Shown here piece by piece: positions 5,330 through 37,751 of a stretch of DNA of 64,000 bases; the first letter of the stretch is position 1, and every line of letters starts with the position of its first letter. The position numbers and the translations under genes were made by a program. The stretch is taken from positions 434,001 to 498,000 of the forward strand of contig NZ_JAGQAZ010000001.1 in the NCBI RefSeq assembly GCF_024345375.1, in the 5' to 3' direction. The DNA is from Cyanobium sp. WAJ14-Wanaka. Its GTDB lineage: Bacteria > Cyanobacteriota > Cyanobacteriia > PCC-6307 > Cyanobiaceae. The notes under the pieces were generated by a model. That model made no database searches, had not been told where the DNA came from, and was given only the letters and a program-made list of their open reading frames with translations.

Positions 5330-6378
5330 TTGACACTTTTACCTCAGGTCCAGGACCTGACCCCCTCGGCTGCAGTGTGGCTGGCTCCGCTGCGTCCCGG
5401 CGCCGTTGTCTATTGCGAAGGCCAGTTTGCAGGCCTTGATGGCAAAACCGCCCACGGACTGGTGCGCCATTGCGAAGCCTTTGAGATCCGTGCCGTTATT
5501 GACAGCCACTGCGCTGGCCTGGATGCGGGCATGGTGCTCGACGGTGTGGCCAACGGTGTGGCAATCGTGGCCGACCTGGCTGAGGCCCTCGCAATGCCAG
5601 GCAGCAGTCTGAATACGTTTATTTATGGCATGGCTCCAGCCAACGGCCTCTATGCGGCAGAGGATCGCAGCTCCATCAGGTCTCAATCCGCGATGTGCGG
5701 CGCCCCCCCGAGCTCAAGGATCTGAGGCTGTTCAATGGCTCCATCGCCCAGGCCAGTTGCCTGCGCATTGCCGTGCTGGGTACCGATGGCGCCGTTGGTA
5801 AACGCACAACCGCAACGCTGCTGGTGCAGGCCCTCCAGGACCATGGCATCCCAGCGCTGCTTGTCAGCACCGGCCAGACCGGCCTAATCCAGGGCGGCCG
5901 TTTCGGCATCGCCCTCGATGCGATTCCCTCCCAGTTCTGCTCAGGGGAGGTGGAGGCAGCGGTGGTCGAGGCATACCAGAGCGAGCGTCCCGCCGTGATC
6001 GTGATCGAGGGCCAGGGGGCCCTCAGCCACCCGGCCTACCTTTCGTCCGCTTTCATCCTGCGCGGCAGTCAGCCCCAAGCGGTGATCCTGCAGCATGCCC
6101 CGGCCCGGCGAAAACTCAGTGATTTCCCCTTCCTGCCGGTGCCCAGCCCGGCCAGTGAGATCCGCCTGATTGAGGCCTTTTCTCCCACCAGGGTGATCGG
6201 CCTGACCCTCAACCATGAGGGCCTGGATAGGGCTGCCCTAACCGCTGCAATCGCCCTCTATGAGGCAGAACTGGCCATCCCAGTGACCGATGCGATTAGC
6301 CGTGGACCCGAGCGCCTCGTGGCGATGGTGCTGCGCGCCTTTCCCGAACTGGCTGGTGCCTGCAGCGTGCCCGTTTGA
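5330..6378 (+). pseudogene. DUF1611 family (DgcN-like) gene interrupted by a frameshift
   Basis: Two adjacent frames together make one DUF1611 protein. The first (from TTG 5330) carries the N-terminal domain with VVYCEGQFAGLDGKTAHGLV and FIYGMAPANGLYAAEDR. The second ends at 6378 and carries RDVRRPPELKDLRLF, the P-loop GTDGAVGKRTTATLL, and the rest of the C-terminal domain. The family sequence runs directly from the first part into the second, so about one base appears missing between 5655 and 5672. The second frame could be translated alone from GTG 5695 but would lack the N-terminal domain. Some DUF1611 proteins act as D-glutamate N-acetyltransferases (DgcN). It overlaps the downstream racemase gene by four bases (TTGA). 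The break could be a sequencing error, a true pseudogene, or recoding. Confidence 0.75.
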
Positions 6379-7505
6379 GTCCATTGCGCCTCGAGATTGA
6401 TCTCGGGCTGCTCCATCACAACGCCAGCACCTTGGTGGATCGGCTGGGCCGGCGCGGCATTGCCATAACCGGTGTCAGCAAGGCCACTTTGGGCCTGCCG
6501 GAGATTGTCCAGACCTGGGTGGCGGCGGGGGTGGGTTCGATCGGTGAATCGCGGATCGAGAGCATCGAAGCCCTGGCCCGTCTTGGGTTGGCGGTGCCAT
6601 TGCTGCTGATTCGCTCGCCCCTGCTCAGCCAGGTGGATCGAGTAGTGGCCCATGCAGCGATCAGCTGCAATAGCGAGGTGAAGGTGCTGAAGGCCCTGGC
6701 GGCGGCGGCCATGCGCCAGGGGCTGCGCCATGGCGTGCTGCTGATGGTCGAACTTGGCGACCTACGCGAGGGGCTGCTGGTGGAGGAGCTCGAGGAGGTG
6801 GTCCAACTGGTGTTGGGGTTGCCCAGCCTGGAACTGAAGGGAATTGGCACCAACCTGGGCTGTCAGCACGGTGTAGCTCCTGATCAGGCCAACATGGCTG
6901 TCCTTACGGGCTTGGCCAACACCCTTGAGCGTCGCTTCCAGGTGCAGTTGCCCTGGTGTTCGGGGGGAAATTCAGCCAATTTGCCCTGGTTGGCTAGCGG
7001 TGCCGATTTGGGCCGGATCAACCATTTGCGACTGGGGGAGGCCCTGCTTTTGGGGCGAGAACCGCTTGGTCGCACGCCGATTCCAGGCATGCATACCGAT
7101 GCCATCACCCTGGTGGCTGAGGTGATTGAAGCGAAATTCAAGCCCGTGGAGCCCTGGGGCCACCGCCAGCACACCAGCTTCTCTAAACAGCTTTCGGATC
7201 CTGAATTAGGCCAGCTCCCTTGCGCGGAGTTGCCTCTAGCCCATTCCCCTCCAGCCCACCGAGCCCTGTTGGCCCTAGGTGAACAGGATGTTGACCCGGC
7301 CGGCCTGACGCCCGCTGCGGGTATCTCAATCCTGGGGGCCTCCAGTGACCACCTGCTCGTGGGCTGTGAAGGAGCGCCCCTGCAGGTGGGCGATGAACAG
7401 CGTTTTCAACTCAGCTACAGCGCCCTACTGCGGGCGATGACCTCTCCGTTTGTGGATCGATCCTTTGTGGGGGGCCCAGACCCAGATGGGCCGGCAGAAT
7501 GGTGA
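6375..7505 (+). CDS. PLP-dependent alanine/ornithine racemase-like protein (YhfX/Orr type)
   Basis: The 376-residue protein has the fold-III PLP-enzyme N-terminus: LRLEIDLGLLHHN, then GVSKATLG in which the lysine should bind PLP. It continues with GIGTNLGCQ, SGGNSANLPWL, NHLRLGEALLLGRE and GMHTDAITLVAEV, in the order found in the ornithine racemase/YhfX branch and not in standard alanine racemase. It should racemise an amino acid in the cytoplasm; the substrate is not deducible. The start is a TTG overlapping the upstream stop (TTGA at 6375), suggesting translational coupling to the DUF1611 gene. It overlaps the downstream permease gene by seven bases. Confidence 0.8.
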   Translation: MSPLRLEIDLGLLHHNASTLVDRLGRRGIAITGVSKATLGLPEIVQTWVAAGVGSIGESRIESIEALARLGLAVPLLLIRSPLLSQVDRVVAHAAISCNSEVKVLKALAAAAMRQGLRHGVLLMVELGDLREGLLVEELEEVVQLVLGLPSLELKGIGTNLGCQHGVAPDQANMAVLTGLANTLERRFQVQLPWCSGGNSANLPWLASGADLGRINHLRLGEALLLGREPLGRTPIPGMHTDAITLVAEVIEAKFKPVEPWGHRQHTSFSKQLSDPELGQLPCAELPLAHSPPAHRALLALGEQDVDPAGLTPAAGISILGASSDHLLVGCEGAPLQVGDEQRFQLSYSALLRAMTSPFVDRSFVGGPDPDGPAEW

Positions 7506-34890: not shown

Positions 34891-35493
34891 TTATGCAAGA
34901 TCAATCGGTTCGGCTTGAAGTGCCCTCAGCTGGGTAAGTACTTCATCGCTGTGGCCCGAGGGCCTAACGGCCACAAATTGCTCCCTCAGGATGCCGTTGG
35001 GATCAATTAAAAAAGTGTGGCGCTGGGAGTAGGGCGCAATCCAGCTGCCATAGGACCTGCTGACCGCACCACCAGGGTCGGAAAGTAGGGGGAATGCCAG
35101 CCCTTCGCTGCTGCAGAACTCCGCGTGGGATTCAGGATCGTCTGCACTTATGCCCACCACCTGGGCACCAATTTTTTTGTACTGGGGCAAGTCTTTTTGG
35201 AAGCCCCTGGCCTCGATGGTGCAACCCCCGGTGAAATCGCGGGGGTAGAAATAGAGAACCAGCCACTGGCCGGCAAAATCGGCGAGTGCCAATTCGGCAG
35301 GGATGGCCTCACTCACTTCGCCAGCCACCGATGGCTGTACGCCGGCCAGCCGGAACTGCGGGGCCGGTTGCTGAAGAGCCGGCAGGGTTCCTCCCAAGGC
35401 AAAAGCCTGCTGGCCAGAGACCAACAGGCTTGCTATGAAAATGAAGATGGGTAGAAGCAGTCCTGTAGCAACTACAAACCTTCGCCTAACCAT
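34891..35493 (-). CDS. Peroxiredoxin, PrxQ/Bcp type, exported or lumenal
   Basis: The 200-residue protein begins with RRRFVVATGLLLPIFIFIASLLVSGQQAFA, a signal peptide or signal-anchor. The thioredoxin fold follows with YFYPRDFTGGCTIEARGFQ, where the TxxC cysteine is the peroxidatic residue, and SADDPESHAEFCSSEGL with a second cysteine positioned for a PrxQ-type intramolecular disulfide. It reduces hydroperoxides. The export signal suggests thylakoid lumen or periplasm. Same orientation as the phosphoesterase 22 bases downstream. Confidence 0.9.
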   Translation of the reverse strand: MVRRRFVVATGLLLPIFIFIASLLVSGQQAFALGGTLPALQQPAPQFRLAGVQPSVAGEVSEAIPAELALADFAGQWLVLYFYPRDFTGGCTIEARGFQKDLPQYKKIGAQVVGISADDPESHAEFCSSEGLAFPLLSDPGGAVSRSYGSWIAPYSQRHTFLIDPNGILREQFVAVRPSGHSDEVLTQLRALQAEPIDLA

Positions 35494-35517
35494 GGTTTTT
35501 GAAGATTCTGACTTCGA

Positions 35518-35754
35518 TCAGATCTTGGCCAGATTAATGCCAAGCTCCTTGGCATAGGGGCCCAAGCCCTTCTTTTGGATGGTCTTGAGGGCCCGGGTCG
35601 AGACCCGAATTTTGATGAAACGCTTGCCTTCAGCCCACCACAGACGACGCTCCTGCAGGTTGACCTGCTGGAGCTTTTTGGTGCGCACGTGGGAGTGGCT
35701 GACAGCCATGCCGTTGTTTGCGCGCTTGCCGGTGAGTTGGCAGACCCGGGACAT
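35518..35754 (-). CDS. rpmB: 50S ribosomal protein L28
   Basis: A 78-residue basic protein: [38 protein letters not shown], and [15 protein letters not shown] are exactly the L28 pattern of cyanobacteria and plastids. It is part of the large ribosomal subunit. ATG 35754; 44 bases downstream of htpG on the same strand. Confidence 0.98.
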
Positions 35755-35798
35755 AACTATCAGCCATTAATGGTGCGATCTTACCAAAGTGCTTGCCC

Positions 35799-37751
35799 CT
35801 AAAGGCCCCGCTCCATCAGCTGGCCCATCAGATCACAGCTGCGCTGCTGGTAGCCGGCCAGTTCGTTGGGCTCCATGCCACCCACTGCCAGCCGGGCGGT
35901 TTCATAGAGATGGCGGCTGAGCCCATTGGCCAGTTCCTGGCTGGGGGAAATGCCAGAACCCGTAATCACGGAACCCGCACTCAGCTTCAGCACACCCTCA
36001 ACCAGGCTGTGCTTTCGATTCACCAAAAGCACATGGTGGTCGGGAAGGCCCGGTAGGCGCTGCTCCATCAGGGCCCCCATGTCGTTGATGCGGCGCATCT
36101 GTTCCGGCAGAAGGATCAGGGCCGCAGGGGAGTTTTCACCCTTCAGGGCCTGCACCTGAATTGTGATTTTGTCGTTGGCAAGGGCTGATTTGAATAGGTC
36201 GCGGATCTTCTCGGAGCTGTCCTTGCCATCGGCATCGGCCAGCTCACTCTCCTTTTCCTGCAGGGAGTCATCCAGTTCGGCATCGACCCGCTGAAACTTC
36301 AGTTCCCCATGGCGCATCTCCAGCCAGGGGATGAATTGGCTGTCTATGAAGGTGTCTGCCAGCAAAACCTCAGCTCCCTGGCTGGTCCAGAGCGAGAGGG
36401 GCCCGGCCTGGCCAGCCTCATCGGTGCAATAGAGAATCCGCTGGCTGTTGTCTGCTGCGAGCCGGCCGCGGTACCCCGCCAGGGTTGTGTAAGCACTGGC
36501 GCCACTGGCCCTTTGGCGATCCGTTGGAATCGGATCAGGGTTGGCAAGTTCGGCCTCACCACCCTCCTGGGCCCTTGCTGTGGTGCCAAACAGCACCAGA
36601 TCGGCCACCTGCTCCGCAAACTTGTCGTCCTCCATGGCGCCGATCTTGATGAAGGGGGCCAGGGATTCCCAGATCTCGGCATAGCGGCGGGGTTCATCGC
36701 TATGCAGTTGCTTGAGGCGATCCCCAACTTTTTTGGCCACAAAGGACCCGATTGAGCGCACTCTTCTGTCTGTTTGCAGGGCAGAACGGCTGACATTGAG
36801 GGGGATATCAGGGGAATCGATCACACCCCGCAGAGGCAGAAGGTAGCGGGGCACCACCTCCTTGATCGAATCGCTAACAAACACCTGGTTGCAGTAGAGG
36901 CGAATCTCTCCCTTCTCCCAGTCCGCCCGGCCGCCCAACTTGGGGAAGTAGAGGATTCCTTGGAGGTTGTAGGGGTAATCGGTGTTTAGGTGCACCCAGA
37001 GCAGGGGGTCCCCCTGGAATGGATAGAGGTAGCGGTAGAGCTGGATGTAGTCGTCGCCTGAGAGGTCCCGGGGGCTCTTGCGCCAGGGCGCCTCGCGCTT
37101 GTTGACCGTTTCACCCTCCAGCTGCACCGCTACGGGCATGAAGTCGCAGTAGGTGGTGATCAGGGTGCGAATCCTGGATGGCTCGATGTATTCGAGCTCC
37201 TCATCCATCAGGTGCAGGACCACATCGGTGCCGGGCTCATTTCGCTCAGCGGCCTCCAGGGTGAAATTGGGTGAACCATCACAGCTCCAACGCACCGCCT
37301 CGCTGCCCTGCTTGGCGCTGAGGCTGACCATTTCCACCTGCTTGGCCACCATGAAACTGGAGTAGAAGCCCAGTCCAAAGTGGCCAATGATTGCGTCGCT
37401 TTCCTGCTTGTATTTCTCGAGAAAATCCTCTGCGCTTGAGAAGGCCACCTGGTTGATGTAGCGCTTTACCTCATCAGCATCCATGCCGATGCCGTTGTCG
37501 GAAATTGTGAGGGTGTTGGCTTCCCGATTGATTCGGATCGAAATCAGGCCCTCGCTGCCCTCCAGGCAATCACCAGCCATGGCTGCCATCCGGCGCTTGC
37601 TGATCGCATCAACGCCGTTACTGACCAGCTCCCTCAGGAACACCTCATGGCCGCTGTAGACAGCCTTTTTGATGATCGGGAAGATGTTCTCTGTATGGAT
37701 CTGGATCTGACCCTGTTCTGCCTGCAGCACGGAGGTGTTATGCGGATCCAT
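35799..37751 (-). CDS. htpG: Molecular chaperone HtpG (Hsp90)
   Basis: Hsp90 is a dimeric ATPase chaperone; in cyanobacteria it takes part in heat and light stress responses and phycobilisome maintenance. The 650-residue protein has the GHKL ATP site: FLRELVSNGVDAISKRR, TISDNGIGMDADEVKRYINQVA in outline, and GHFGLGFYSSFMVAKQV; then the middle domain and a C-terminal dimerisation domain. The N-domain Asp is replaced by the family's ELVSNGVDA form, whereas the usual is ELISNASDA. It lacks an MEEVD tail, as all bacterial members do. Monocistronic appearance. Confidence 0.97.
   Translation of the reverse strand: MDPHNTSVLQAEQGQIQIHTENIFPIIKKAVYSGHEVFLRELVSNGVDAISKRRMAAMAGDCLEGSEGLISIRINREANTLTISDNGIGMDADEVKRYINQVAFSSAEDFLEKYKQESDAIIGHFGLGFYSSFMVAKQVEMVSLSAKQGSEAVRWSCDGSPNFTLEAAERNEPGTDVVLHLMDEELEYIEPSRIRTLITTYCDFMPVAVQLEGETVNKREAPWRKSPRDLSGDDYIQLYRYLYPFQGDPLLWVHLNTDYPYNLQGILYFPKLGGRADWEKGEIRLYCNQVFVSDSIKEVVPRYLLPLRGVIDSPDIPLNVSRSALQTDRRVRSIGSFVAKKVGDRLKQLHSDEPRRYAEIWESLAPFIKIGAMEDDKFAEQVADLVLFGTTARAQEGGEAELANPDPIPTDRQRASGASAYTTLAGYRGRLAADNSQRILYCTDEAGQAGPLSLWTSQGAEVLLADTFIDSQFIPWLEMRHGELKFQRVDAELDDSLQEKESELADADGKDSSEKIRDLFKSALANDKITIQVQALKGENSPAALILLPEQMRRINDMGALMEQRLPGLPDHHVLLVNRKHSLVEGVLKLSAGSVITGSGISPSQELANGLSRHLYETARLAVGGMEPNELAGYQQRSCDLMGQLMERGL

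Follow-up and report, generated by a model that had tools for sequence, protein, structure and literature searches.

A DUF1611 gene with a 94-base internal deletion beside an open racemase-like gene in Cyanobium: probably a young pseudogene

The window, i.e. the whole 64-kb stretch of DNA analysed here, corresponds to G000:C1:434001-498000 of its genome and holds two overlapping open frames (5330–5725 and 5584–6378) on the same strand and in different frames, directly followed by a racemase-like gene. The question is whether they are one gene and, if so, what broke it and whether the break is real. Homologue alignment and profile search identified both frames as parts of one DUF1611 gene. An earlier note on this DNA had read them as one DUF1611 protein, and profile matches and continuous homologues agree with it.

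One DUF1611 gene and the missing 94 bases

The features of the locus, all on the + strand, are as follows.

5330–5725, +: ORF with a TTG start, frame 2
5330–5668, +: N-terminal DUF1611 part, 113 codons, TTG start, frame 2 (tblastn to orthologues)
5668–5669, +: deletion junction, where 94 bases of the relatives are absent; the edges cannot be placed exactly
5669–5725, +: 18 out-of-frame codons that close the first ORF, plus stop (stop at 5723–5725)
5584–6378, +: open frame, frame 1, first possible start GTG at 5695
5680–6378, +: C-terminal P-loop DUF1611 part, frame 1, 232 codons plus stop
6375–7505, +: racemase-like gene (Ala_racemase_N, Orr-like), open; its TTG start overlaps the DUF1611 stop as TTGA

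The P-loop domain PF07755 was complete in 5695–6378 (212.1 bits, cut-off 25; profile positions 2–201 of 201), and the C-terminal part was 82–84% identical to most orthologues within the genus. The PF17396 match of the N-terminal part was incomplete (19.9 bits vs a cut-off of 22.6; positions 2–55 of 95). In two intact relatives, it scored 85.1 and 79.4 bits and reached position 95. A complete PF17396 match above the cut-off, as in a DUF1611 two-domain protein, is missing from the window copy. Its two domains do not share one frame either, as frame 2 gives way to frame 1 at 5668/5669. The remaining 345 codons contained zero stops. The first codon aligned to the TTG at 5330 was mostly TTG (28 of 31 relatives), followed by GTG (two) and TAC (one). 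The intact orthologue L077 matched the solved DUF1611 chains 2g0t, 2obn and 7xrj (E from 1.7e-41 to 3.9e-32).

The frame shift lies inside 5655–5672, where it had been placed before: homologue alignment and the codon-usage Viterbi path, the latter from the window sequence alone, both set the boundary at 5668/5669. The cause proposed in the earlier note, one lost base, did not hold. In the DNA alignment, all 38 readable close relatives had exactly 94 extra bases between the positions that match 5668 and 5669, against 0 in the window. From the Asp-Arg codons to the Val of VSIRDVRRP, 105 bases were counted in relatives and 11 in the window. This alignment rules out a one-base loss. Because 94 equals 3 × 31 + 1, the downstream frame is displaced exactly as by the loss of one base. 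Adding one base back restores the reading frame but not the protein, as about 31 residues are still absent. Compared with its orthologues, the gene is disrupted in both content (94 bases) and frame, at a point where 38 of 38 readable relatives are intact.

The best 80 of 155 relatives found were kept, and 39 of them (L075–L113) formed the close cyanobacterial set. Thirty-eight of the 39 titles were cyanobacterial. The other one, L100 (CALPNT020000165.1), is titled as a Bifidobacterium breve MAG and carries a DUF1611/racemase pair of the picocyanobacterial type (78% identical); it is probably a misbinned contig. L102 was masked upstream and was omitted from the DNA alignment, which left the 38 readable relatives.

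We consider it probable that the locus holds a young pseudogene, namely a DUF1611 (DgcN-like) gene, probably for an enzyme that modifies amino acids, with a 94-base internal deletion. In L077, the corresponding segment lies between R128 and V164 and comprises about 31 residues. Seven of its columns were invariant in a 16-sequence alignment of orthologues (L132, A134, G138, L139, G144, L149 and A159). In the AlphaFold2 model of L077 (mean pLDDT: 80.3), the segment makes up most of helix 125–136, strand 140–143 and most of helix 153–162. All 41 more distant loci kept the motif of the segment (such as NGLHEFLNDD.EF) and read it in the same frame as the C-terminal half; in 40 of them, at least 130 codons of this frame were open ahead of the match. 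As a separate observation, the DUF1611 frame of L114 (near 870–1068; a MAG titled Coriobacteriia) extended over only 64 open codons ahead of the C-terminal match, and its N-terminal part may carry a break at another site.

The deletion would take about 31 residues from the N-terminal Rossmann-like domain and shift the frame. A protein without this segment is unlikely to fold properly, and the product of the broken gene is very likely inactive. An annotation pipeline would mislead here, whether it called a pair of short DUF1611 proteins or a frameshift of one base.

Constraint on the broken gene and the assembly

With time, any pseudogene would be expected to show relaxed constraint. The branch-length ratio of codon positions 1+2 to position 3 was 0.19 on the terminal branch of the window (bootstrap 0.13–0.33, 60 replicates). 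The values for four intact long tips of comparable kind were 0.20, 0.18, 0.21 and 0.30, and a shorter tip had 0.12. For the C-terminal part, the ratio was 0.157 in the window and 0.11–0.28 in the four tips. For the N-terminal part alone, which is short and noisy, it was 0.41 in the window and 0.18–0.28 in the same four tips. This test covered 31 of the 39 close relatives and the window (L092, L102 and L108–L113 were excluded). At third positions, the length of the window's terminal branch was about 0.50.

Under simulated neutral evolution (400 runs a point), the gene stayed free of stops with a probability of 0.18 at 0.1 substitutions per site, 0.07 at 0.2 and 0.005 at 0.3. The lack of stops by itself would allow a modest neutral stretch. 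Constraint through most of the terminal branch together with zero stops means, therefore, that the deletion is recent or an artefact. The previous description of a broken gene, recently lost or artefactual, beside an intact coupled racemase-like gene stands. Against a pseudogene speak the intact racemase partner, the lack of a second lesion and the lack of overall relaxation, although the N-terminal part alone has a higher, noisy ratio. A lesion that is recent or an artefact would be expected to show no relaxation.

These points bear on the first alternative, an assembly or consensus error: the true genome would have an intact gene, with the 94 bases lost in assembly or a minority variant taken instead. 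The rest of the gene, which looks fully constrained and is free of a second lesion, fits such an error, and the deletion is known from a single assembly of the species. However, at 2.14 Mb in 7 contigs and with a completeness of 99.93, this assembly is long and almost whole, and the loss of 94 bases would be unlike the usual consensus error of one or two bases. Moreover, the codon-usage path alone gave no other clear within-gene break over the 64 kb. We regard the error as unlikely, though a serious candidate.

Over the window, the codon-usage path had 22 same-strand frame changes, the DUF1611 break included. The nearest start was at most 51 bases from the upstream stop in 21 of the 22; as these are alike in start-to-stop distance, the measure does not single out the DUF1611 break. 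The exception, near 35800, is a short open frame (35493–35799, − strand) between two longer genes, too short to enter the ORF list. We take it to be a ribosomal protein L28 look-alike.

Taken together, the break looks like a recent gene loss of the ordinary kind or like an error of assembly, with no new mechanism.

Slippage and the halves as separate products

Contrary to the claim that no classic slippery heptamer is visible at the shift, there is one of the X XXY YYZ type ahead of the upstream-frame stop at 5723–5725.

5703–5709, +: C7 run, with the heptamer C CCC CCG at 5704–5710 in the upstream frame

Slippage of ribosomes or RNA polymerase on this run could join the halves and preserve the downstream coupling. 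Both frames are open where the run lies, its phase suits a −1 slip, the upstream stop follows 13 bases later, and constraint persists in both halves. Comparable runs are few: the 64-kb window has 7 G/C runs of at least seven bases, which, scaled to the 57-base tail, gives an expectation of about 0.006, in a count made post hoc. However, the fused product would still be without the roughly 31 residues whose motif every close (38 of 38) and every distant (41 of 41) relative keeps. It would fall short of a full-length family protein, and the split is not conserved. Relatives are continuous here and do not need a slip; the run falls on Arg-Pro-Pro codons that are conserved, with C6 in L111. A rescue by slippage is very improbable.

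Equally doubtful is a half-rescue, in which the deletion put the C7 run to use and slippage yields low levels of a shortened DUF1611 protein or ribosomes that reach the racemase-coupled stop.

A reading of the C-terminal P-loop half as an independent working gene, started at the GTG at 5695, is scarcely credible. This half is open over 232 codons, matches PF07755 (212 bits) and is constrained (C-terminal ratio 0.157), but the gene is continuous here in 38 of 38 close relatives, the segment shares its frame with this half in 41 of 41 distant loci (with 130 or more open codons upstream in 40 of these), and no purine-rich ribosome-binding stretch was seen just 5′ of the GTG. Homologues split at the break were sought and rejected: the 38 close loci had none, and in the 41 distant loci the segment and the C-terminal half are read in one frame.

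The racemase-like partner, the genus and known DUF1611 systems

Returning to the young pseudogene, the downstream gene was said to be intact and translationally coupled, and judged by its sequence this appears to be right: 6375–7505 is an open frame whose TTG start shares bases with the DUF1611 stop (TTGA). It matched PF01168 with 86.2 bits and the ornithine racemase Orr model NF040742 with 289.1 bits, which is below the cut-off of 480 bits. We assume this Ala_racemase_N Orr-like partner to be of the PLP type. The junction between DUF1611 and racemase was TTGA in 33 and GTGA in six of the 39 close loci, and because of this the coupling looks conserved.

Translation from the normal start would stop at 5725 and end in an 18-residue scrambled tail. 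Ribosomes terminating there would presumably not carry translation to the TTGA-coupled racemase-like gene. Its expression would then fall, and the gene may decay next, as apparently happened elsewhere in the genus. In the racemase branch test (29 of the 39 close relatives and the window; ratios for the 14 longest tips only), the window's ratio of 0.37 was the second highest of these tips (range: 0.18–0.38). This could be mild relaxation.

A DUF1611 orthologue was found in 12 of 16 genus genomes, self included, at an identity of at least 69%, and the same 12 had a long racemase match. The orthologue was absent from four of the 16 (G002, G004, G007 and G011). In G002 and G004, neither a DUF1611 orthologue nor a racemase match was found. 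G007 and G011 had 3′ racemase fragments only, with a TGA inside the G007 fragment.

G007:C4:7692-8120 (L157): racemase 3′ fragment; no DUF1611 orthologue in the genome
G011:C84:18733-18978 (L156): racemase 3′ fragment; no DUF1611 orthologue in the genome

Both fragments are remains of the same DUF1611/racemase pair. No DUF1611 remnant was detected within 7.0 and 8.0 kb around the racemase fragments of G007 and G011 (best E: 0.96). With a completeness of 88% for G002 and 83% for G007, absence there is weaker evidence. Completeness was 98% for G004 and 99% for G011, and incompleteness does not account for the absence in these two. PF07755 was missing altogether from 25 of 60 relatives; the gene is therefore dispensable in the family. 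The window genome may represent an early stage of the loss of the coupled pair, as in other members of the genus. As a side observation, G008 had two copies of the DUF1611/racemase pair, on G008:C79 and G008:C83 (L034, L041).

A second intact copy of the same gene can be set aside, as genome searches gave only a distant paralogue (about 33% identical). This paralogue belongs to a different pair.

G000:C1:90399-91502: second DUF1611 gene of the window genome, intact; it shares one base with a DgcA-like gene of the enolase family
G000:C1:89299-91502 (L155:1800-4003): DUF1611/DgcA-like pair, 158.5 of 400 bits for NF042940 and 216.8 of 480 bits for NF041892

At this identity, the second copy may be no substitute for the lost function.

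Adjacent DUF1611/Orr-like racemase pairs on one strand were also seen in several of the loci L116–L153, titled Nitrospinota, Acidimicrobiia, Cellulomonas, mycobacteria and others. Racemase identity in the pair loci of this range was 42–62%. The DUF1611/Orr-like racemase pair thus occurs well beyond cyanobacteria and is distinct from the DgcN-DgcA pair. The limited literature sampled gave no tested function for it, and a search for ornithine racemase in cyanobacteria gave no literature match.

Among known systems, DgcN-type DUF1611 proteins (PF17396 and PF07755; NF041892) are alike in that both window halves align to one such protein. They differ in that the window copy is without about 31 residues and a single frame, and in that the neighbour of the intact orthologue is Orr-like, not DgcA-like. 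On the DgcN equivalog model NF041892 (cut-off: 480 bits), the second half of the window gene scored 108.6 and the intact orthologue L077 154.7 bits, both below the cut-off. Membership in this equivalog would imply N-acetylation of a D-amino acid. The DgcN-DgcA pair is described in connection with D-glutamate use (PMC10845958, PMC12363236). The window resembles it in that its DUF1611 gene adjoins a racemase-type gene, and differs in that the window pair is a separate paralogue with an Ala_racemase_N Orr-like partner. A further likeness is to bacterial pseudogenes made by a short internal deletion: one out-of-frame deletion, a constrained remainder and intact orthologues. From these the locus differs in nothing notable; its coupled downstream gene is still intact.
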